Shown here piece after piece: positions 15,494 through 62,880 of a stretch of DNA of 64,000 bases. Origin of the DNA: Nymphaea colorata (taxonomy: Eukaryota; Streptophyta; Magnoliopsida; Nymphaeales; Nymphaeaceae); contig NC_045142.1 of the NCBI RefSeq assembly GCF_008831285.2, forward strand, positions 2,981,001 to 3,045,000, read 5' to 3'. Position numbers and translations under genes: made by a program. The notes below the pieces were generated by a model that saw only the letters and a list, made by a program, of their open reading frames with translations, was not told where the DNA came from and ran no database searches. Within the stretch, counting starts at the first letter, position 1. Each line of letters starts with the position of its first letter.

Positions 15494-16590
15494 TGCATTG
15501 CATCAGTACTTAACATGTCTGATCCAACATGACTCATGTAATTTGATGTTCGTTTGTATTGGTTATAAAGTAGATTCTACACTGGCAGCCATGGTTGTAT
15601 GAGAGAGATGGGAAATTACAAAAGAAAATGCATTAAAAACCGCAGTCAAAACAAGCTACCGTTTGAATTTCTCTAATTTCATCACCAACATCACGTGGAG
15701 AAGAAAAGTAGCAGTTGAATGAAAGAAATTCAAACTTAAGCATGTTTAATTGTACCTTCAAATTTTGAGCGACTTCTTGTAAAACTTTAGAAGGCATTTG
15801 GATGACACCCTCAAAACCCCAGTTTCGTGAGAACTATTAATGAATTTCTAAATAACCACCAGTTTTCGTATTTGAGCGACACATTTAAAACATAGTTTTT
15901 TTACGAATAACTTAGGAGGTGAGGTTATTTGCTTCTATTCTGAAAACTAGTTTTCGTCAAAACTGAATTTTTCTTAAACCCTCAAACAACGCCGTTTTGG
16001 AGGTAAGGTAATATTTTACTTCCAAAACTACATTTTAGATTGTCATTCAAACCTTCAGTTTAAAACCTTTTTATTTTTATTTTTTTTTACCAAAACGGTT
16101 CTGGCCGACACGGATCTTACAGTATTAGACATTTTTTATTTGGTAAATGTTTCAAAAATATCTATTGATTATTGTTAAAAAACATGGCATAACTCAATAC
16201 ACAGGCCAATGTCTGCCGATGGTACCGACCATGCGTAGCATTTATTTGCAAACCGAGACGGCAAGAAAACCGAGAAGGACAGGAGTGTTCATGGACGCTT
16301 ACAATCGTGTCTCTGTCACGTTCTCTGAGTCGATGCGATTCAAGGTAGAGTGGTACAAACGAAGGTTTAACTCAACGGCGGTGTCCTCTCTCCTTTCTCC
16401 CTCGCCCTACGGGGAGAGGCAGGCGGCCGCGCTAGGGGGCGACTCTCCCTCTTCTCTCTCACTCTCCTGCATTGCTGGAAGCCTATGACACCACAAGCTA
16501 GGCAGGCTTCTCCTCTTCACTTTCCTATCGAGCGTTGGGACGCCGCGGCTCTCCCAATACAGGACAATCAACCTTCCTTCCCTTCTTCGA
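15494..16590. other. Intergenic DNA and presumed promoter of the first PPR gene
   Basis: No gene is apparent. The last 250 bp before the PPR start are CT- and GC-richer and probably contain its promoter and 5' UTR. No clear TATA box could be assigned. Confidence 0.4.
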
Positions 16591-19404
16591 ATGGACTTCC
16601 GACGCCCCTCCTCCCTCCTCAGCCAGGAAGCCAAAACTCTGGCCGTCAACCTCATCCGTCCGCTCACTGGTGCCGCCTTCGCCTCTGCCCATCACTATCA
16701 GAACCACCGCTTGGAGTCGGTTGTCGTCGCTGACGATGACGGCGGCGGAGGCGGCCTCGCGAAGAAGGTGATGCAGGTTCTCTCCCAACCATTTCTGGAC
16801 TCGTCCAAATGCCGGGAAATCCTCGGGGGTCTGAGTCCTATCCAGTTCGATCGCATCTTCTCCGATGTACAGTCCGCTGTAAATCCGCTTACATCGCTTA
16901 AGTTTTTCGATTGGGCGTCCAAGACCCGTGATTTCCCGTTCACTGTCCGATCGTACTGCGTCCTCGTCCACGTTCTTCTTCGTGCCAACGTTCCGGCATC
17001 GGCTAGATTGGTTTTGATTCGCTTGATCGACTGTAACTTTGCTGTGGCCTTCGCCAACCCGAACGAGCGGCATCTTGAAGTTGCCCGTGCTCTAGTGGAC
17101 ACTGCTTGCGTATCTTCTAGCTCGATGGCGTTTGATTTGCTGATTCATATATGCTGTACTACATTCAAGAATGCGAGGTTCGCGTTCGATGCTTTTCAAT
17201 TGCTGCGCGTCCACGGTCTCTTCCCTTCTGTGAGAACTTGCAATTTTCTCTTGAATTCTCTCGTGAAATCGAACGAATTTGATAAATGCAGGGTGGTTTT
17301 CCAGTCGATGTCGATGGGCATCTCCCCCGATCTTTATACTTTTAGTACTATGATTAATGCTTATTGCAAATTGGGTAAGGTTGAAGATGCAATTGCGTTG
17401 TTTGGTAGGATGGAGGAATCTGGTTGTTGTGGAAGTGTCATTACATATAACACTATGATTCATGGGCTCTGTAAGAGTGGGAAATTGGATGAGGCTTTTC
17501 GATTGAAACAGAGGATGATTGATAAGGGAATTGATCCGAGCATTGTCACTTATAGTTCACTTCTTAACGGTTTGGTTAAATCTGAGAGAATGGATGAAGC
17601 GACCTCTGTTCTGAATGAAATGGTTGAAAAGGGGATTGCTCCCAATGATGTGGTTTATAATACCTTGATTGATGGTTTCTGTAAAGTGGGAAACGTTAAA
17701 GAGGCAATGAGGGTTAGGGATGATATGGTAATTAGAGGGGTTTCGCCAAACACGGTTACATGCAATTCTCTTCTCCATGGATTATCTAAAATGGGAGACA
17801 TGCAGAAAGCAGAGGGGCTTTTGGAGGAGATGCTATCAGAAGGCATTGATGTTCACCCTGGTGCTGTGAGTAGGATGATTCATTGGCTAATAGGTCAGTC
17901 AAGATTGGATTCAGCAGTTAGGCTCTTTGATGAAATGCTAGCTAGAAGTGTGAGGCTCAGTGATGCTATGTGCACTGTGATCATCAATGAGCTGTGTAAA
18001 GTGGGGAAGATGCATAAAGCTTTAAGATTATGCTCTGAACTGTTTGAGAAAGGATTTGGAGCTAATATTGTAACTTGTAATGCACTTGTACATGGTCTCT
18101 GCAAAGGTGGCAGCACAAAAGAGGCAGTTACACTTGTCAAACAAATGCTTGAGAGGGATATGTCACTTGACAATGTGACATTCAACTCGTTGATTATTGG
18201 GTGCTGCAAGGAGGGTAGGATTGATGAAGGTTTTAGACTGAAAGAAGACATGATTAGACGAGGGATGAGGCTGGATCTTTTCACATACAATGCTCTTTTA
18301 CATGGTTTATGTACTTTGGGTAAGATGGAAGAGGCCTTGGACCTATTGAAGAAGACGGTGGAGGCTGGTTTGGTGCCTGATTTGGTTATGTACAGCACAA
18401 TTATAAGTGGGTACTGCAAGCTTAAGAACCTTGATAAGGCAACTGACGTATTCACACAATTGCTAGAATCAGGGCTGGATCCAAATGATGTCGTCTACAA
18501 TACGCTTATTGATGCACATTGCAAAAATGGAAACATGGCAGATGCTGTTAGACTCTTCGATGAGATGAAACAGAAACACATCTCACCAACTAACGTTACA
18601 TATGCGTCCTTCATCCACTACCTCTGCAGCATTGGAAACATTGAGGCAGCAAAAAAGAATCTGGATGAGATGAGGAATGTGGGTTTGATTCCTAATGTTG
18701 TCTGCTATACGATAATAATAGAAGGCTACTGTAAACTAGGGCACTTAGATGAAGCAAACAATATGCTTGAGGAAATGCGTTGTCATGGTTTGGCTCCAAA
18801 TAAGATAACCTATACTATCATGATTGATGGCTACTGCAGAGCTGGTGACCTTGAAAAAGCTGTTAAGTTTTTTAATGAAATGGTTGAAAATGGGATTGTT
18901 CCAGATATTGTTACTTATAACACTTTGGCTTATGGGTTCTGTAAAGAAGGGAACATGGAAGAAGCAAACAACATCATTGCAAGAATGCATCTACATGACC
19001 TGGCTCCAAATAAAGCCACCTATGCTGGCATGGTTAATGGCTATTGTAGAGCTGGTGATGTCAAGCAAGCTGTTAAACTTTTGGATGAAATGGATGCTAG
19101 AGGCATTATTCCAGATGTTACAACTTACAACGCATTGATTCATGCATTCTGTAAGGAAGGAAATATGGATGACGCTTTCAAGTTCTGTGATCGTATGGCA
19201 CAGAGAGGTCTGGTCTTGGATGAAGTTGCATATACAACACTTGTAAATGGGCTTTATGTTTCCGGATATTCCAAAGAAGCTAGTTTTATATCAAAATGGA
19301 TGGTTAAGCATGGGATAGTTACTGGGGATATCAAGCATATGACACTTGATAAACAAACTGAAATATTGATAGCAAGACACCGGACACAGTCGGAAGATGG
19401 TTGA
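16591..19404 (+). CDS. P-class pentatricopeptide repeat protein, At4g19440-like
   Basis: This single uninterrupted frame of 937 codons starts at an ATG. The Ser/Arg-containing N-terminus looks like an organelle-targeting peptide. The region around residues 60-140 (LDSSKCREIL, FDRIFSD, VRSYCVLVHVLL, ARLVLIRLID) matches what I recall of Arabidopsis At4g19440. From about residue 205 to 920 it consists of about 20 tandem 35-residue PPR motifs of the form VVTYNTLIDGFCKVGNVKEA. There is no E or DYW extension, so it is a pure P-class protein, a type that binds specific organellar RNAs to stabilise, process or help translate them. The RNA target is unknown. It is about 110 residues longer than I recall for the Arabidopsis protein, partly explained by a 70-residue internal duplication near the C-terminus. 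Chloroplast versus mitochondrion cannot be decided from this sequence. Confidence 0.9.
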   Translation: MDFRRPSSLLSQEAKTLAVNLIRPLTGAAFASAHHYQNHRLESVVVADDDGGGGGLAKKVMQVLSQPFLDSSKCREILGGLSPIQFDRIFSDVQSAVNPLTSLKFFDWASKTRDFPFTVRSYCVLVHVLLRANVPASARLVLIRLIDCNFAVAFANPNERHLEVARALVDTACVSSSSMAFDLLIHICCTTFKNARFAFDAFQLLRVHGLFPSVRTCNFLLNSLVKSNEFDKCRVVFQSMSMGISPDLYTFSTMINAYCKLGKVEDAIALFGRMEESGCCGSVITYNTMIHGLCKSGKLDEAFRLKQRMIDKGIDPSIVTYSSLLNGLVKSERMDEATSVLNEMVEKGIAPNDVVYNTLIDGFCKVGNVKEAMRVRDDMVIRGVSPNTVTCNSLLHGLSKMGDMQKAEGLLEEMLSEGIDVHPGAVSRMIHWLIGQSRLDSAVRLFDEMLARSVRLSDAMCTVIINELCKVGKMHKALRLCSELFEKGFGANIVTCNALVHGLCKGGSTKEAVTLVKQMLERDMSLDNVTFNSLIIGCCKEGRIDEGFRLKEDMIRRGMRLDLFTYNALLHGLCTLGKMEEALDLLKKTVEAGLVPDLVMYSTIISGYCKLKNLDKATDVFTQLLESGLDPNDVVYNTLIDAHCKNGNMADAVRLFDEMKQKHISPTNVTYASFIHYLCSIGNIEAAKKNLDEMRNVGLIPNVVCYTIIIEGYCKLGHLDEANNMLEEMRCHGLAPNKITYTIMIDGYCRAGDLEKAVKFFNEMVENGIVPDIVTYNTLAYGFCKEGNMEEANNIIARMHLHDLAPNKATYAGMVNGYCRAGDVKQAVKLLDEMDARGIIPDVTTYNALIHAFCKEGNMDDAFKFCDRMAQRGLVLDEVAYTTLVNGLYVSGYSKEASFISKWMVKHGIVTGDIKHMTLDKQTEILIARHRTQSEDG
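18792..19211 (+). repeat. Tandem duplication of two PPR motifs (210-bp period) within the CDS
   Basis: The block starting ggctccaaataa at 18792 recurs at 19002 with no gap. Both copies encode APNKxTY, then GYCRAGD, AVK, a PD-containing segment and FCKEGNM in the same order, 70 residues apart. The DNA is also clearly similar, which points to unequal crossing-over inside the gene rather than convergent motifs. Confidence 0.8.

Positions 19405-50107: not shown

Positions 50108-50214
<107 letters not shown>

Positions 50215-50748: not shown

Positions 50749-50830
<82 letters not shown>
50749..50830. repeat. Compound (CT)n(TA)n microsatellite
   Basis: About 14 CT units run directly into about 27 AT units. 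This is the reverse-complement arrangement of the tract at 50111-50213, about 535 bp away. Confidence 0.95.
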
Positions 50831-53554: not shown

Positions 53555-55500
53555 ATGGTTTTGCCAAATAATTTTTCTCATGTTATAAAGAATTTTGACG
53601 CTTTTTTGTTCTCGCTTCTGCTTCCTCCAAGTAACATATTATCATACAAGCAAAATCCAAAATCCAGTAGCACTTTCGCATGGTACATTAAAGAAAACTT
53701 GTTGCTTCACAAAATACAACTTCATGGATTTGGCCAAAGTAAAAGACTTTGTAGTAATCTTCAATGCGGATTCATGCTATCCATCACACTAAAGTCATGC
53801 TGGCTCATCCGCCATGATGCAAAGAGCTCAGGTGAGCCTAGCTTGAAGGAGAAGAAGACACACAAAGAATCAAGAGAAAGCATGTACATGGTTCGTCTTT
53901 GTTTCTACGTCCACAAGAGGAGGAGAGCAATTCATTCATTCGTTTCAATTTATACAATAATCACCCGAGGAATATATAGAACAATACACTTCGATAGTCC
54001 AAGACAAACCAAAAGGAAAAAAAAAAACCGGCCATGGATTTGCTGAGAGATCACAGCGTCAACAAACGCCACGTCTGAAATCCGTGGATTTCAGATCCAT
54101 GAAGGGCCTGAAATCCACGGATTTCAGGTCGGATCGCCGGCCGGGGTTCGACCTCTCCCGCCGGAGAGGTTGTGGCGGGGCTCTTCCCGCCATGCCCGTG
54201 AAGCTACCTCCGGCATCGTCCGGACTCTCTTTCTATCTCTCTCTACAAATCTCTCTCTGTTCTCTCTCTACAAGTGTCTCTCTGTTGGCCGAGGGTCTGA
54301 GAGCACGGACAAACCCTCGGCAATGGCCGAAGGTTTGACATAAACCAGAAGCCTCGGTCATTGCCGAAGGTTTCAAGTGGAACAGAACCCTCCGCAATGG
54401 CCGAGGGCTTCACAGAAAACAAAATCCTCAGCCATTGCCGAGGGTTGTGAGGAAAACCCAAACCGCCATCGAGGTGATGACCTCGCCGGCGAGTTTGAAG
54501 CCCTCTCCTTCCGCAATGTGGTTACCAGAAAAGAAGGGCTGCAAAGCCCTCTTGTTCCGACGACCCATCCCTCCTTTTTGAGAGAGAGAGAGAGACTCGC
54601 CCGGACATGGCCATCGTCGGCTATGGCGCCTCGCCGGAGATCCTTTCATCACCGGCCGACGGATGCTCTCACGGCTGATGCTGCCATGCATCGGCGAGAA
54701 TGATCCGATGGCTTTCTGAAGCCATCAAACACGAAGAGGGTCTGACTTTAGAAGCTTGGATTATAGATCCTTGGATCTGAAATCAGTTTCCAATCTAAGA
54801 TCCAGAGTCATCAAAACACGATGAGGATCTTACTTTAAAAGCTTGGATTATAGATCTTTGGATCTAAAATCAGTTTAGAATCTAAGATCTGAGACCATAA
54901 ACGCAGCCAAAGAGAGAAAAAAAAAATCTCCAAAAATAGCTCGCACAATCTAAGACATTGGGTTTTGTTCCCAAAATCTCCAGCAGATAGCTCGCACAAT
55001 CTAAAATATTGGGTTTTGTTCTCAATAAGAGAAGTATGATTACTCCGATTGTTATCTTACACCACACGATTTGTGATACTCCTTCTCACACAGAAAGAGC
55101 AAATGACTCTCTAATATGATCGGATCCAAAAGGCAAATACGATTGGATCTAATACAAACCAGATATACATTTGGAGTCAAAAGAACCAAAAGAAAGAGAA
55201 CCTATCATAAAGCAAGCCCAATGCATTGTGGATCTTAAAGTAACCCATAAGCTAAATAGGTACAGAAATCCAGATCATATCAATGTAGATCCAAATACAA
55301 TATTACCAAAACATGATAATATGAACTTAGAACATGAATGGCTCGAAATCAAACGTTATATGGGCATGCTGCTATAATATCCAGATCCAATTAAAAATTC
55401 TAATTCTTCTAAAAGGAAATTGACACTTCCATACAAAGACTGATCATGCTTATTCGTCTTTGTAAAATCTATGAGTGATCGTCACACGCCTTCACTTTTG
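53555..55500. mobile_element. Composite transposon-derived region (LTR-like and hairpin-rich fragments)
   Basis: No gene is supported. The segment near 53880-53960 and the one near 55060-55180 look like parts of copia-type LTRs (gtacatggttcg...tctacgtccacaagag), but the ends could not be fixed. Between them lie GC-rich hairpin repeats (54285-54450) and two short tandem duplications: about 95 bp around 54718-54905, and about 60 bp around 54925-55030. The open frames here only reflect GC-rich repeat composition. Confidence 0.4.
54288..54444. repeat. 37-bp array of CCTCGGCAATGGCCGAGG-type hairpins
   Basis: Four 19-bp near-palindromes start at 54315, 54352, 54389 and 54426, exactly 37 bp apart. 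They alternate between a caatggc and a cattgc loop orientation, and a half-unit lies at 54288. Spacers differ in sequence. Subterminal repeats of CACTA-type transposons often contain ccgagg words, so that origin is likely. Confidence 0.75.
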
Positions 55501-55779
55501 GCGAGCAAGAAAATCAAAGGCTCCAATTTGGACTGTAGACAAATGTTTAATAAAAGAAAACTGAACTCCTATTTCTGACTTTTGAAGGTTTTCAAAAAGC
55601 GTATAAACCCCGAAGCTATGTCACAATATACAGCTATGGGTATGGGTACGGCATTTTTTAAAATCTTGGTATGGATAGAGTGACTATTATATATAATTAA
55701 TTCAAAAAAATAATTATTATATATAATTAAACCACAAGTTGGAACAAAAATGCCAACAAAAAGAAGCTCCTAATGAATA

Positions 55780-58050
55780 AATTATCAATGTTTCATCTTG
55801 TTAACGAGACTTCTTGTGTTAAAGTAAAAAAAAAAACAAGAAAAAGTAAAGGATAAGTCATTTTTTTTTCTTTTTTAGTTATAATGTAGTTTGGATCTGG
55901 TTCTGACCCGTATCCAGATCCAAATGTACCGGGCCGTACCAAAGTACCGGCGTACCGGCGTACCGGTACGTGGTACGCCACCAATTGGGCGTACCATTGT
56001 GACATACCCGACGTAGATGTTTTCTTGGGCCGTTTGATTAGGGAGTGATTGTACTGGTTGTGCATCATCATACCACCGCGACCTTCCGTCTTCATCAGGC
56101 ATACATCCACGGGTAAGGGTTCTTCACGCTGCTGAAAATGGAAACCTCTCTCTCTCTCGTTCCCCATTCGCTGTGCTCCTTTGCCCTGTGCATTATATGT
56201 TATGCTCTCTATGCTTGACTGCTCCTATTCGCTCATTCTTGTCATAATGTTCTGCTGATGTCGGTGCTCCTAATGTTTGTGCGCGTCCTTTTCTTCATCT
56301 CCACACAAACCAGGCAAGCCAAAGGACTTCCGGTTGTCCGTGCACCTGCTTTTTTCATATACATTTTGTTAAGTTTTACATGTTACAGATTCATGTGCAG
56401 CGTGGATTAACTGTTTGTTAAAATGCTTATCAGGGATCCAACATGAAATGCTTACAAGTATTTGATAAACACACATTTGTAATAGTTAGTTATTTAACTG
56501 TTTTTCTCTGGTTCCCTCACTTGCCATCAAACACCAATAAAGAACTTTTCTAACTCATCAAACACACGTTTTGGGATGAGGTTGAATTTCGACTCTTCCA
56601 CTCTTTACCAAGAGGACCTCCCCTTCGTAAAATTTCACCTCCAATCAAGGGAAATAAACAATGCTCCCTTATTTTTCCCTCCATCTTCTCCCTCCTCTCC
56701 TGTACCCTCTTCTCTCTCTGAGGGTTTCGCTGAAAGCAGAAACCTATTCTAGCCCCTTAGGCCACCGGCGAAAACCATTGACTAGCAGTCAAGAGTTCCA
56801 AGAGTTCTGAGGAGGAGGGTACCCAAAGATAGTAGGCAAACCTGGTTTTCAGGACGCTGTCAACTAGGCTAAGATGTCTTCGCAGAGAAGGCCGGTGTGC
56901 TGCCCCTCTTGTTTTTCATTATCTATTTCTTTTACCTCTTGTGTTATTTCAGCAAAGAGATTGACTCAATTAACAAGGCTTCTTGGCTCAAATAACCGAA
57001 GAAGGGATTTTTTATATGTTCTCTATTTTGGTTTGTTTCTCTCGCTTTTTTTTTTTCTGCATGCATCGAGCAGAGCCATGCGGCTTCGGTGGACTCCGTT
57101 CTGTTTTTGTTGTTGTCGTCATTTTTTTTTGTTTTTACTATTTTTTTAGAGTTCCACTGAAGAGTACCGATTATCGGTGGCTGGCTGAACACGTCAAACA
57201 TCCTATAGTGAGCAAGGTTTAGAACAGTCTCAATTCAGGCTCTGGTGTCAAGGGTCCATCAATCAAATTCAACCTCTGCAGGGGTTCTTTACCACCAGAG
57301 TGGAGGAGATTGGACCGAAGGAGATACCTGGCCCTCAGGCGTTATCTTCCTCTTGAGTCAAGACCAGAAAATCAAAGCCCTTAGCCAAGGGATGGACTTC
57401 CTTCTGATGGTAAGTATGAAATTTATTTTCCTTTCTCCTTTTATTATTATTATTTTTATTTTCACTGGTAGAGCTCAGAAATTCATTGCCTTACCTTTTT
57501 TTATGCACAGATTCATGCTATACATGGATGCATAAAGATTTTCGTTTTGGGGCACGCATATGCCATGTTTTATCCATGGTAGCCTATTATGAAATACCAT
57601 CACACATGTAAGCGTGTTTCTCATCATGCTCATAGAAAACACAATATTCCATGCCAGCATAAAGTCAATAGAAAATCATTTCTAAAATGGAGGCAAGCGT
57701 ATCCGCTACTCAAAGACAATAACATAGTGAAGCAAATAGCTTTTGAAGGCTCTTCCTAATAGTAGTTGGCCTTATCTCTTGAGGCACCAAGTACTGATGA
57801 AAAATACAAAATGTTGAGGCAGGCAATAAAGTGACTAACCTGAAAGTGTGCATATCGGCACACTTCTAGAAAAATAAGAATGCTTGAATGAAGCCTGTTT
57901 AACTCACTGTTTCTTGCCTTTGAACTTGCAGGATGCGGCAATGAGGCTTTGATACCACTGTTAGGAGTGAGGAAGTCCATACCTCTCAATGTTGTTGCAT
58001 GCATTGGACTGAACCGGCATCACAGAGCAGGGAGGGTGCAGCACCAAAGA
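55780..58050. other. Intergenic DNA with GTACC-rich element
   Basis: Around 55910-55995 there is a cluster of gtaccggcgtacc words like the subterminal zone of small inverted-repeat elements, but no matching second end was found. The CT-rich stretch 56700-57150 gives weak open frames without family resemblance. A PBS-like motif lies at 57945-57957. Confidence 0.4.
57945..57965 (-). mobile_element. tRNA-Met primer-binding-site-like motif beside an LTR-like end
   Basis: On the minus strand tggtatcaaagcc (57957-57945) matches the initiator-Met PBS at 12 of 13 positions. It is separated by one base from a cctaaca terminus, the usual LTR 3' end. That would place a minus-strand LTR from 57959 rightwards towards the PPR gene. 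The far LTR end and a partner LTR were not identified. Confidence 0.35.
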
Positions 58051-58253
58051 GGAAAATAAGGACAGAGAGAGAGATGGTGTAAGGGAGTTATGGGTTTGCC
58101 TCAGAGGCGCTTTCACACTGTTGCAAGGTTGGGTCCTTTGGCTTTCCCATCTGATCCCTACAGATTATGGCCATCACTGTAAATCTGGGAAGATGGCGCA
58201 AGACTACCTTCCATCATTTGCTCATTATGTCATGGGTCTGAGAAAGGCGGTGC

Positions 58254-58429
58254 ATGGCCACCTCCGTCAGGATACTCCTGGGTAAACAAGCATTTTCTCA
58301 CCAACTTCACCAATTATCGCCTTCTTTACTTCCGAAGCTGCTATGAGCCCTGTCATCAGGTTCCAGTCCCATTGTCGCTTGGTTCTTGACTTCTTTAAGT
58401 GGACAAAGCACCAATAGTTCAATCAGAGC
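58254..58429 (+). pseudogene. Disrupted N-terminal coding part of the EMB2745-like PPR gene
   Basis: An ATG in good context (58254) opens MATSVRILLGKQ and SHQLHQLSPS. A one-base shift within the T run 58325-58327 is needed to continue into FTSEAAMSPVIRF and LVLDFFKWTKHQ. An in-frame TAG (58415-58417) then interrupts the sequence five codons before the next ATG. These segments align, as I recall it, with the N-terminus of Arabidopsis EMB2745 (a YQLHHLSANFT, then EAAS, then a LLLKFLNWA stretch). The homology therefore continues across both lesions. This may be true decay or an assembly error. Confidence 0.75.
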
Positions 58430-60424
58430 ATGGATTGCAAAACTTTGCTCATCCATACTTTATGTCGATCAAGACAATACAAACAAGCTGAACAGATAAT
58501 GCGAGTGCTCATAACTGCAGAAGATGATAGCCGGTTTGATGTTTTTGAGTCTTTGAAGTCAACTTACAGCATGTGTGCTCACATTTCAGCTGCTTTTGAC
58601 ATGTTGATAAAGTCCTATGCATGTTGTGGCATGGCGTGGAAAGCAATTTCGGTGCTTAATTTAGCAGAATCTAGTGGCTTCATGCCTGGTCCACTCTCCT
58701 ACAACCATATTCTAGATGCACTATTTAAGTCTGGTAATTCTTTTATGGCTGAGAAGATATACAATGACATGATTAGGAAGTCTGTCTCATTAAATGTTTT
58801 TTCATATAACATTTTGATAAAAGGACTGTATCTGAGTGGGAAGCTCGACAAGGCTCTTGATTTGTTCAAACAGATGAGAGCAAATGGATGCGAACCAACT
58901 GTCGTCACTTTCAATACTATCATAGATGCTTATTGTAAAATAGGTGAGATACATAAAGCATGTGATTTGCTGGAGTTCATGTTGACAAGAGATTTGAGGC
59001 CAAATTTGGTTACATACAATGCTCTAATCAATGGCTTTTGTAGAGAAGGTAGAATGGGTGACGTTGGCAGATTGTTGGATGATATGAGAAAATGTGGTCT
59101 TGCCCCTGATGGTATTACATATAATACACTTATTAATGGGTACTGCAGGCAAGGAAATACTCATCAAGCTCTTTTCCTGCACGTTGAAATGGTTCAAAGT
59201 GGTTTGTCTCCAAATGTAGTAACATACACTGCCCTTATTAACAATATGTGTAAAAAGGGTAACCTGAAAAAGGCAATAGATTTCTTTCACGAGATGAATG
59301 AAAGAGGACTTCAGCCAAATGAGATGACATATGCTACACTAGTTGATGGGTGCTGCAGACGAGGTTATGTGGAGGATGCTTATGTTCTTCTGAAGGAAAT
59401 GGAGGGAAGCGGGTTCCCTCCTTCTCTTGTAGCTTACAATTGTCTTATCAATGGCCTCTGCCTCCAAGGAAGAATGGATGATGCTTTGCACATTGTTGAG
59501 GACATGCCAGATAAAGGTTTGAGGCCAGATGTAGTGACATATGGTACAATAATTGGTTCTTACTGTAAAAATGGTCAACTGGAGCAGGCTTTTTCTTTGC
59601 TTAAAGTGGCTATGGCGAAGGGTTTCATGCCTGACCTAATTACATATTCTGCACTTATTCAGTGTCTGTGTGAGCAGCTAAAAATCAAGGAAGCTGATGA
59701 TCTTTTTGAGAAGATGCAGAGTGCAGGCCTGTGTCCTGATAATATTACCTTCACAATGTTAATAGATGGCCACTGTAAGGAGGGCAACGTAATGCGTGCT
59801 CTGCAACTTCATGAAGAGATGCTTCAGAAAGGACTGCTGCCTGATGTTGTTACTTACAGCATACTTATTAATGGGCTCAACAGGCAAGCTAGGACGAAGG
59901 AGGCTAAGCGACTCCTGTTCAAAGTGTTGCATGACGTCCCAGTTACAAATGAGGTTACATATGATGCACTAATTGACCACTGTCTCCAAATAGATATGCA
60001 GGGCATTGTTGCGCTTATCAAAGGCTTTTGCTTGAAGGGATTAATTAAAGAAGCTGAAAGTCTCTTCGAGAGAATGGTAAAAAAAAATTGGCAGCCTACG
60101 GAAACTGCATATAATGTGCTGATCCATGGTCATTGTAGAGCAGGCAATATAGTCAAAGCCCTTGATTTATACAAAGAATTAAACAGTGCAGGTTTTGTTC
60201 CCAATATAAGAAGTATGATTGCTCTAATCATAGGCCTTCACAATCAGGGGATGAGTAAAGATTGTGGTAGCCTCATTGAGGACCTTTTGAGAAGTTCATT
60301 GGTCCCTGAGGCTGAAATATCTAAAGTTCTTGTGGAAATGAATCATAAAGAAGGAGACATGCATGCAGTTGTTGATGTACTCATGCAGATGATGAATGAT
60401 GGACTTGTTCCTACATCCAAGTAA
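58430..60424 (+). CDS. EMB2745: P-class PPR protein, EMB2745 (At5g39710) orthologue, N-terminally truncated frame
   Basis: An intronless frame of 664 codons begins at the first ATG after an in-frame TAG. About 16-17 PPR motifs follow one another from near residue 60. Diagnostic C-terminal segments match what I recall of EMB2745: LLPDVVTYSILINGLNRQ, RTKEAKRLL, the irregular ALIKGFCLKGLIKEAESLF after a short non-canonical unit, AYNVLIHGHCRAGNI, and VLVEMNHKEGDM...VDVL. EMB2745 is required for embryo development in Arabidopsis and is expected to act on RNA in an organelle. Translation from 58430 would lack the targeting peptide and first helices, so the protein could not reach an organelle unless the upstream lesions are sequence errors. 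The repeat part itself is free of stops, which suggests that any loss is recent. Confidence 0.8.
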   Translation: MDCKTLLIHTLCRSRQYKQAEQIMRVLITAEDDSRFDVFESLKSTYSMCAHISAAFDMLIKSYACCGMAWKAISVLNLAESSGFMPGPLSYNHILDALFKSGNSFMAEKIYNDMIRKSVSLNVFSYNILIKGLYLSGKLDKALDLFKQMRANGCEPTVVTFNTIIDAYCKIGEIHKACDLLEFMLTRDLRPNLVTYNALINGFCREGRMGDVGRLLDDMRKCGLAPDGITYNTLINGYCRQGNTHQALFLHVEMVQSGLSPNVVTYTALINNMCKKGNLKKAIDFFHEMNERGLQPNEMTYATLVDGCCRRGYVEDAYVLLKEMEGSGFPPSLVAYNCLINGLCLQGRMDDALHIVEDMPDKGLRPDVVTYGTIIGSYCKNGQLEQAFSLLKVAMAKGFMPDLITYSALIQCLCEQLKIKEADDLFEKMQSAGLCPDNITFTMLIDGHCKEGNVMRALQLHEEMLQKGLLPDVVTYSILINGLNRQARTKEAKRLLFKVLHDVPVTNEVTYDALIDHCLQIDMQGIVALIKGFCLKGLIKEAESLFERMVKKNWQPTETAYNVLIHGHCRAGNIVKALDLYKELNSAGFVPNIRSMIALIIGLHNQGMSKDCGSLIEDLLRSSLVPEAEISKVLVEMNHKEGDMHAVVDVLMQMMNDGLVPTSK

Positions 60425-62880
60425 GTCTGACTGTTCATCAACGTGAGTTAGTTCAACTAGCTGAACATGTCAGAGAATTCAGCTATTTGAGTATCCTATC
60501 AGGAAAAAGAAAAGGTTTATGGTGCATGTAGTGGTCATATTATAGTCGGAGCTCCATTTGCCGGATTAGGAGCCTGGCACCATAAAAATTATTCAGGCCA
60601 TAGCTTGGATGGTGCTTATATGTGTGATGTAGGGTCAGAATGCCCAAGGAATTTGGTGGTTGACAAGCAAAGGAAAAAAAGAAAAGAAAAATGCAGATTA
60701 AGCAGTCTGGTTCGAGAATTTCTCTGAGCTACCAGTAATCTTATCATGAACATGCAAATAAAGGAAAAAAGAAGAAGCTTGCAATGATTCTTATGCATTG
60801 TAATGGCTGCAGCAGATTTTGTATAAAAAACCTGTGCTTCCTGACGAAATGAGATGATTTTCCTTGTGTGAATGACATTCATTCTTTTCAGCTAGCTGAT
60901 CTTTTTGCTTGTGTTTATATGGTTCTATCATATTTCCTCTAATGCATGTTGAGGTAAACATGTAGTGTGCACTGTGCAGAGTCACGTCCGATTGGTTGTT
61001 TCGAATGGCATGATCTTTTCTTATAGAAATATGCTATCCAGTCATATGATGCAAATAAGTTGGACATGTATCCCAATCCTTGATTCATGGAATCTTTAGA
61101 ATCAATTGGATTTAAGATTATTGTCCCATTGTTAATGTTCAGATTTAATTCTTTTCTGTTTTTTCTTCACATTTCAGTTTGGGGATAAGATTGTGCTTAA
61201 TATTTCTGAAATTTATGATCCATCAACTCTTTCGCTAACATTGTTCAAGTAACAGCCTAAGGTTTTCATAGTCCAAGATATCTAAGACGGTAAGATGCTC
61301 ATCAAGTTTTTGGGGTTTAGCAATTTTACTTAATAATTTCGATGCCTTGTGTTGCACCTTTCGTGTCAATGCCCGTTATAGGGATGCCGCATGGCCATGG
61401 CACTGTGGCAATGCCTGTAAATCCCCCTCCACATAATGTTAGAAATCTTGTCCCACAGAGTGTCATCTGAAGAGCAGCACAGAGATTGGTCTTATGACAA
61501 TTTTGAGACTGTGATGCTGTATTCTCATGTTACACCAAACAATAAATGAAGAGATCGTTGGGTTTTTGCCGTGTATACAGATCCTTGATAAATTTCTTAC
61601 TGCCGATTCTTGGTGTAACCTTTCACTGCTAAAAAGCATACTAGCAAAAATTCTGTATCAAATTTGTGCCTGTAATTGTAACAGCAAAAGTTTTTAATAT
61701 TGATCCCCTATAACGATTTTTATTGCATTAAATGGAATCGATGTCAAGTGCCTTCTGTATTCCAAGTGAATGCCTCTGTATTATGGTCTGTTACAGACCT
61801 CATCTCCATATTTTCCAAGTATTAGCAAAAACTCTTGGATCTTAACCTTTTCTAGATTGTCTTCATCCATGCATCATCTTTTGCATGTTTTCATTGTGCA
61901 GTTGATTAAGAATGCTTTTCTTACGGGTGCCCATTGTGGAATCTCGATGACCAGTTATAATACTGCTACCACCCAAGTAATATAACTAATCTGCCTTTGA
62001 ATTAATCAACTGGCTGCTTAAATTGTATGTTTGCCAGAGAATTTGACTGCCGTGATGGCCGCTCCTGTCAGTCAGTTGAAGACAAAGCTTTGTTCATCCT
62101 ATTGAATAATAAGCTGAAGGTCACAACTGGGTGGAGGATGTCCGGCTATTACCATATTGGATTCAAATATTTGTGCATTCATCATGATTTTTCTTTTTCT
62201 TCTTGCAAGTTTCTTATCATTTCTTCGTCATGCTTCCACTTAACAAGAGAAGCGACAAGTAAAGAAAGCGCATCAACGGGTATCACTTCATAAGCAAGAA
62301 TGATCGACATTTAATAAGCTTGCCATGGTCGCTATTTGTCATACTGAGAGAAATGATCCATAGTTAGCAAATGAAATTGGCAAGAATTGAAGATGCAATC
62401 GCTTTGAAACTGCATGAAACATGCTCACCACTGTGACAAATCTGTTGGAGAAACGATGCAGCTGCATAAGCATGAACTTTACTCGTGCCACAGTGATCAA
62501 GTTCACCTTCTGGTAGACTTCGGGATTGCTCCCTGCAAATACGGAGTTTGTCGATCTTCGAACATGAATGACAACATAGTGCAGATGACGCGTCACCATT
62601 TGTAGATTTCAATTATAATAAGGTGTTGAAACAATGTCTCTAATGTTACGTGGTAGCAAGAGCCCAAAGTAGACTCGTTATGAAAAAAGGAGCCAAGGTT
62701 CAGCCATTAAGCTGACCTACCGCGGTCAAAGCCAAAGGCGGTTCAGTTTGGCGCGTGGGGCCCACTCAGGATCCCGGACGCGAAGCATTTCGATGCATGA
62801 AGTTTGATAAAGGGATTCGGTTCCGGCGCCAAGTCCGCAATGAACGGTAATTAATGAAACTTTCGCGTCCGCGTCTCGAA
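60425..62880. other. Intergenic region
   Basis: No gene is recognised. The first part is the PPR 3' flank. The rest is AT-rich with short frames only. Confidence 0.45.

Follow-up and report, generated by a model that had tools for sequence, protein, structure and literature searches.

The window analysed here is a 64,000-nucleotide stretch of the Nymphaea colorata genome (NCBI RefSeq assembly GCF_008831285.2, contig NC_045142.1, positions 2,981,001 to 3,045,000 of the forward strand), and positions given below without a contig are those of the window. It contains a PPR gene whose long open body is preceded by an in-frame stop codon and probably by a one-base frame slip. From 5′ to 3′ the features are as follows.

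58254..58346, + strand: 30-codon frame from an ATG, ending at a stop; probable original start and targeting peptide
58320..58327, + strand: interval of the probable one-base slip, placed by homology to an approximate EMB2745 sequence; longest homopolymer 3 bases
58325..58414, + strand: N-terminal PPR-family segment FTSEAA...LVLDFFKWTKHQ, main frame, 5′ of the stop
58415..58417, + strand: TAG stop in conserved coding sequence, in frame with the ORF at 58418-60424
58430..60424, + strand: open body, 664 codons and a stop, of a P-type PPR protein; its ATG has A at -3 and G at +4

The ORF at 58418-60424 measures 668 codons from stop to stop, and 58430 is its first ATG 3′ of the TAG; the 664 perfectly open codons that the earlier note on this DNA had described there are indeed present. 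A Pfam scan of 58418-60421 gives PPR_2 with E=3.7e-179 in 13 stretches, that is, tandem 35-residue PPR motifs, and PPR structures, both designed and natural, match the body as well. No editing-type E or DYW C-terminal domain occurs among the 16 Pfam families listed for it at E≤0.001, and by its sequence the body is classed as a P-class PPR protein. It contains nine homopolymer runs of 5 bases or more, the longest A9, and the frame is kept throughout. A second PPR gene, intact and with a 971-codon ORF (16489-19404), lies 39 kb upstream and belongs to the comparison set used below.

The same note had claimed that homology continues through the TAG, and our comparisons bear this out. A profile of 17 other PPR genes, none of them from this locus, runs straight across the stop with its motif L..FF.W and scores 64.5 bits (the other two frames reach at most 1.3 bits), with a mild bias towards resemblance in that the 17 segments were chosen from 41 genes using an earlier profile that included the window gene. 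This N-terminal motif of the family stands directly 5′ of the TAG. A search of the whole genome with the main frame, its stop written as X, gave 16 matches; 12 are in genes without an internal stop, 11 of which start before the X, and the other four are the window gene itself and its decayed fragment (below). Scoring of 12 PPR genes gave 10 that start before the X among the alignments listed (W971 is not listed, and L041 has none at domain E≤0.01). The 14-mer that ends just 5′ of the TAG ranks second of the 127,918 six-frame 14-mers in the window with a score of 14.5, the first being from the window's other PPR gene, itself a profile member; since an unrelated stretch follows at 13.8, this rank alone is not decisive. 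Profile and genome matches both span the TAG, and thus the stop sits inside conserved coding sequence; on these sequence comparisons we regard the homology running through it as confirmed. Within 58325..58414 the family homology backs the part from about 58352, and the earlier part is matched by the approximate EMB2745 sequence only. The coding sequence is therefore broken in the sense used for pseudogenes, by a TAG in conserved sequence and probably by the slip as well.

We take EMB2745 (At5g39710) to be a P-class PPR protein that is embryo-essential in Arabidopsis. It can be aligned co-linearly with the main frame, starting at 58319, continuing across the TAG and stopping close to the end, with 48.6% identity over 702 columns, measured against an Arabidopsis sequence that is an approximate query. 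Orthology with EMB2745 is thus a strong lead, based on this approximate sequence. AT5G39710/EMB2745 is given as ‘Essential in embryo’ in a table of PMC12430068. The two genes are alike in being co-linear, the N. colorata gene having no other near copy in its genome, and they differ in that a stop and probably a slip part the body of the Nymphaea gene from its start. Searches by tblastn in viral and genome contig collections found no relatives of the gene, and our literature searches, on EMB2745/AT5G39710 among others, turned up no report of this 5′ lesion.

Upstream of the TAG, the homology appears to change frame. In the main frame, similarity to the approximate EMB2745 sequence begins at 58319-58325; in the frame of the ATG at 58254, HQLHQLS (58299-58319) resembles YQLHHLS of that sequence, a weak match (E 0.37-2.8). 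The 30-codon peptide that starts at this ATG has a net charge of +3 and no acidic residue, and its frame differs from the main frame. Going 5′ from the TAG in the main frame, the next stop begins at 58283 and the sole ATG between, at 58343, is inside the homologous segment, so a full-length protein needs a frame change or a splice upstream. The simplest account is a frame slip at about 58320-58327, and on the approximate Arabidopsis sequence it is probably the right one. Of the one-base shift previously placed at 58325-58327, the change of frame is probable, on the same approximate sequence, and the exact place less certain, as PPR profiles alone allow it anywhere 5′ of about 58352. The T run said to lie at the shift is absent; no run in 58301-58350 is longer than 3 bases.

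The genome that was searched comprises 407.8 Mb in 783 contigs. DNA searches, which skip very common words and whose negative results hold for that search only, found one full copy of the gene, one decayed fragment and no second copy of 58254-58416. In the protein search the closest other match has 32% identity and 296 bits, compared with 1531 bits for the gene. Rescue by an intact paralogue, one of several explanations that had been proposed, is accordingly rejected, these searches having found no intact second copy in the assembly. Nor was a haplotig of the flank at 60500-62500 seen, the other matches to it being at most 79% identical.

The decayed fragment lies 188 kb upstream of the gene at C5:2851074-2852528 (L002 1501-2955). 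Its start corresponds to 58417 of the window; after 58757 it continues at 60419, leaving out 1.66 kb, and within it a 293-bp unit is repeated in about 4.2 tandem copies. Against 341 bases of the gene it shows 15 substitutions in 293 aligned bases, 4 deletions and 1 insertion, and the same stretch of the gene has no break. By codon position of the gene the substitutions number 3, 8 and 4, without a third-position excess. The 1.5 kb upstream of the fragment has no match in the 64-kb window better than E 0.28, so the fragment reveals no upstream exon, and the idea that it is a retrocopy that would do so was rejected. Repeat-like sequence adjoins it. Its 5′ edge coincides with the stop codon within a few bases (58415-58425), perhaps by chance and perhaps at a shared break site; the fragment's bases at this edge do not spell the stop.

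For comparison we used 41 PPR genes, namely the window's other PPR gene and 40 of about 60 that were grouped among the matches listed (20 whole, 20 as 5′ ends); the matches listed are spread over contigs C1 to C14. The distance from the first Met to the model start is at least 46 residues in 37 of the 41, a leader length that is rough for 18 of these 37, where the profile match began no earlier than position 44. It is shorter in L033, L051, L063 and L065, none of which has a cut-off family motif in its upstream 420 bases; L063 and L065 look, on an interpretive reading, intron-bearing near this point. A search 5′ of the ORF with a profile lacking the window gene found a cut-off motif in 0 of 41 genes; the window gene, run as a positive control, scored 40.3 bits, and as the profile fits the N-terminus poorly in 18 of the 41, breaks there could be missed. 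Its top scores, 2.6 bits in L039 and 2.1 bits in L059, were taken as chance. None of the 20 whole PPR loci has a split body by a search that misses short N-terminal remnants, the window gene's own included. By a similarly interpretive reading, L029 has 23 residues of paralogous sequence 5′ of its ATG, and the hits at L034 belong to a neighbouring gene on the opposite strand. As neither a cut-off motif nor a split body turned up among these genes, the window gene's condition is an unusual one for this genome.

Both changes fall in the 176 bases 5′ of the ATG at 58430 and none in the next 1992, an arrangement with a chance of 0.0066 if lesions are even, a figure that is in part post hoc and includes the slip, which is less certain (for the stop alone it is about 0.08, 176 of 2168 bases). 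The lesions thus occupy the first 8% of the gene, the pattern to be expected of a body that is still being read, be it from ATG 58430 or from another leader. If substitutions are assumed to occur at 7e-9 or 3e-9 per site per year and indels at one tenth of that, a neutral body would on average wait about 0.6 or 1.4 Myr for its first break, and 95% of such bodies would be broken within 1.8 or 4.3 Myr; the fragment, with five indels in 341 bases, is an example of unconstrained decay in this genome. Set against that expectation and that decay, the open body suggests constraint until recently or still, and 664 open codons with strong PPR scores speak against a loss of constraint over the whole gene.

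We therefore favour, with a probability of roughly 0.42, a recent and real 5′ truncation of the sole full copy found of an EMB2745-type gene, the body of which is still read. The original start, the targeting peptide and the N-terminal helix would have been severed recently by a real in-frame stop and probably by a one-base slip, and the repeat-bearing body would have stayed under selection and still be translated, either from ATG 58430 or via a different leader joined upstream, giving a product without the ancestral N-terminus. The reality of both changes, the translation of the body and its route to the organelle are what we infer from the sequence. Next in our order of preference comes a non-functional or heterozygous allele, and after it an assembly error.

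The favoured truncation has to be squared with the N-terminus that it would leave. The ATG at 58430 has a good context, and 12 ATGs precede it from 57933 on. The protein that starts there has a net charge of -1 and 7 acidic residues in its first 40, and none of 37 comparison PPR N-termini has so low a charge or so many acidic residues; over these 40 residues the 18-residue amphipathic moment is 0.47, which is not low, 28 of the 37 comparison genes being equal or lower. By composition, the only basis on which targeting was assessed, the older peptide at 58254 is the more targeting-like of the two, and with its acidic N-terminus the protein from 58430 would probably fail to reach an organelle unless it acquired another leader. 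When 54001-58340 was scanned for leader exons with a good donor, one candidate emerged, which is no better than chance: 49 of 200 shuffled sequences yielded one or more. The distribution of the lesions thus favours a rescued gene, and the missing targeting signal disfavours it. About 300 bases 5′ of the gene, 57892-57962 has an 82% match to C10:48732-48800; part of it resembles the reverse of a tRNA primer-binding site, and we take it to be a possible retrotransposon remnant.

Heterozygous loss-of-function alleles and annotation-corrected genes occur in draft genomes, and a single conserved gene that carries a stop or slip in a single assembly is of that kind. The strongest rival explanation, doubtful in our view but to be taken seriously, is a recent non-functional allele: the sequenced plant would be heterozygous, or the gene dispensable in this lineage (for example after loss of its organelle RNA target), with decay just begun. 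A stop in conserved coding sequence is what such an allele would show, as is an N-terminus, from the only good downstream start, unlike those of the comparison genes. The change looks recent, since the segment 5′ of the stop can still be recognised, and a haploid consensus displays one allele only. PPR genes that were pseudogenised or truncated after loss of an editing site are reported (PMC3441922). The Nymphaea gene differs from the ordinary broken allele of a draft genome in having two changes about 90 bases apart at its 5′ end and an open body. Their confinement to the first 8% argues against this explanation, and homozygous loss of an embryo-essential gene is not to be expected; that no intact haplotig was found in the assembly also weighs against it, though collapsed haplotypes would not appear.

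Polished PacBio assemblies can retain one-base indels, whereas the stop would need a substitution-type error, which is rarer. An assembly or base-call error at one or both sites, the real gene being intact, is a possible explanation but an unlikely one. The N. colorata assembly (409 Mb, 14 pseudo-chromosomes) was made from PacBio RSII reads with Canu and polished with Arrow and Pilon, according to the assembly account in PMC7015852, and totals published there give a calculated read depth of about 122x, which makes error less plausible. The stop lies at the edge of a stretch copied elsewhere, where short reads map less surely, yet the edge bases of the copy are not those of the stop. The suggestion of an error had been founded on a T run, and that foundation has gone: no homopolymer in 58301-58350 exceeds 3 bases, while the body keeps its frame through far longer runs, A9 included. 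It also speaks against an error that neither a cut-off motif (0/41) nor a split body (0/20 whole genes) was found in other PPR genes.

Less probable still is a rewiring, in this early-diverging angiosperm, of the 5′ end of an otherwise embryo-essential PPR gene, in which the transit peptide and N-terminal helix would have been abandoned, the body would be read from a new leader or none, and the organelle role would have moved, been taken over or changed compartment. Very improbable, finally, is a natural 5′ intron that would make the apparent lesions intronic and thereby supply the small-intron rescue once proposed: there are a donor-like GTAAAC at 58282 and AGs at 58416 and 58425, an AG also marks the start of the copied fragment at about 58417, and L063 and L065 seem to carry an intron close to the corresponding place, but coding homology abuts the TAG on both sides, so a small intron cannot keep the conserved residues; none fits the few bases at the slip (about 6 between the frames on the approximate EMB2745 sequence), in L063 and L065, unlike in the window gene, no family motif is found in the 420-450 bases 5′ of the ORF, and the fragment's upstream sequence offers no exon.

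For the favoured truncation with the body still read, a partial precedent is found in CRR21, truncated genes of which are kept under negative selection in Brassicaceae and Malpighiales after loss of the editing target, as described in PMC3441922. There, as here, PPR genes are shortened, and in the CRR21 cases the remaining body is under negative selection and no full-length copy was found (PMC3441922). CRR21, however, is a PLS-class editing factor with a C-terminal truncation and a known target loss (PMC3441922), whereas the Nymphaea gene is a P-class gene with an N-terminal break and without a known target. If real and fixed, this break would offer a natural experiment on whether a protein that binds organelle RNA and is essential for the embryo can do without its targeting end, and on which RNA target water lilies can dispense with; should it prove an allele or an error instead, it cautions against inferring gene loss from a single assembly.

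The window has further repeats around the gene. Just downstream of it, 61336-62392 is a diverged repeat of about 1 kb with a 76% match to C5:1723897-1724996. Tandem units of 37 bases, each with a short palindrome-like core, occupy 54312-54446 in about 3.6 copies. Compound microsatellites, (AT)n(AG)n / (CT)n(TA)n, at 50110-50213 and 50749-50830 make up a perfect inverted repeat of 82 bases whose arms are 547 bases apart.
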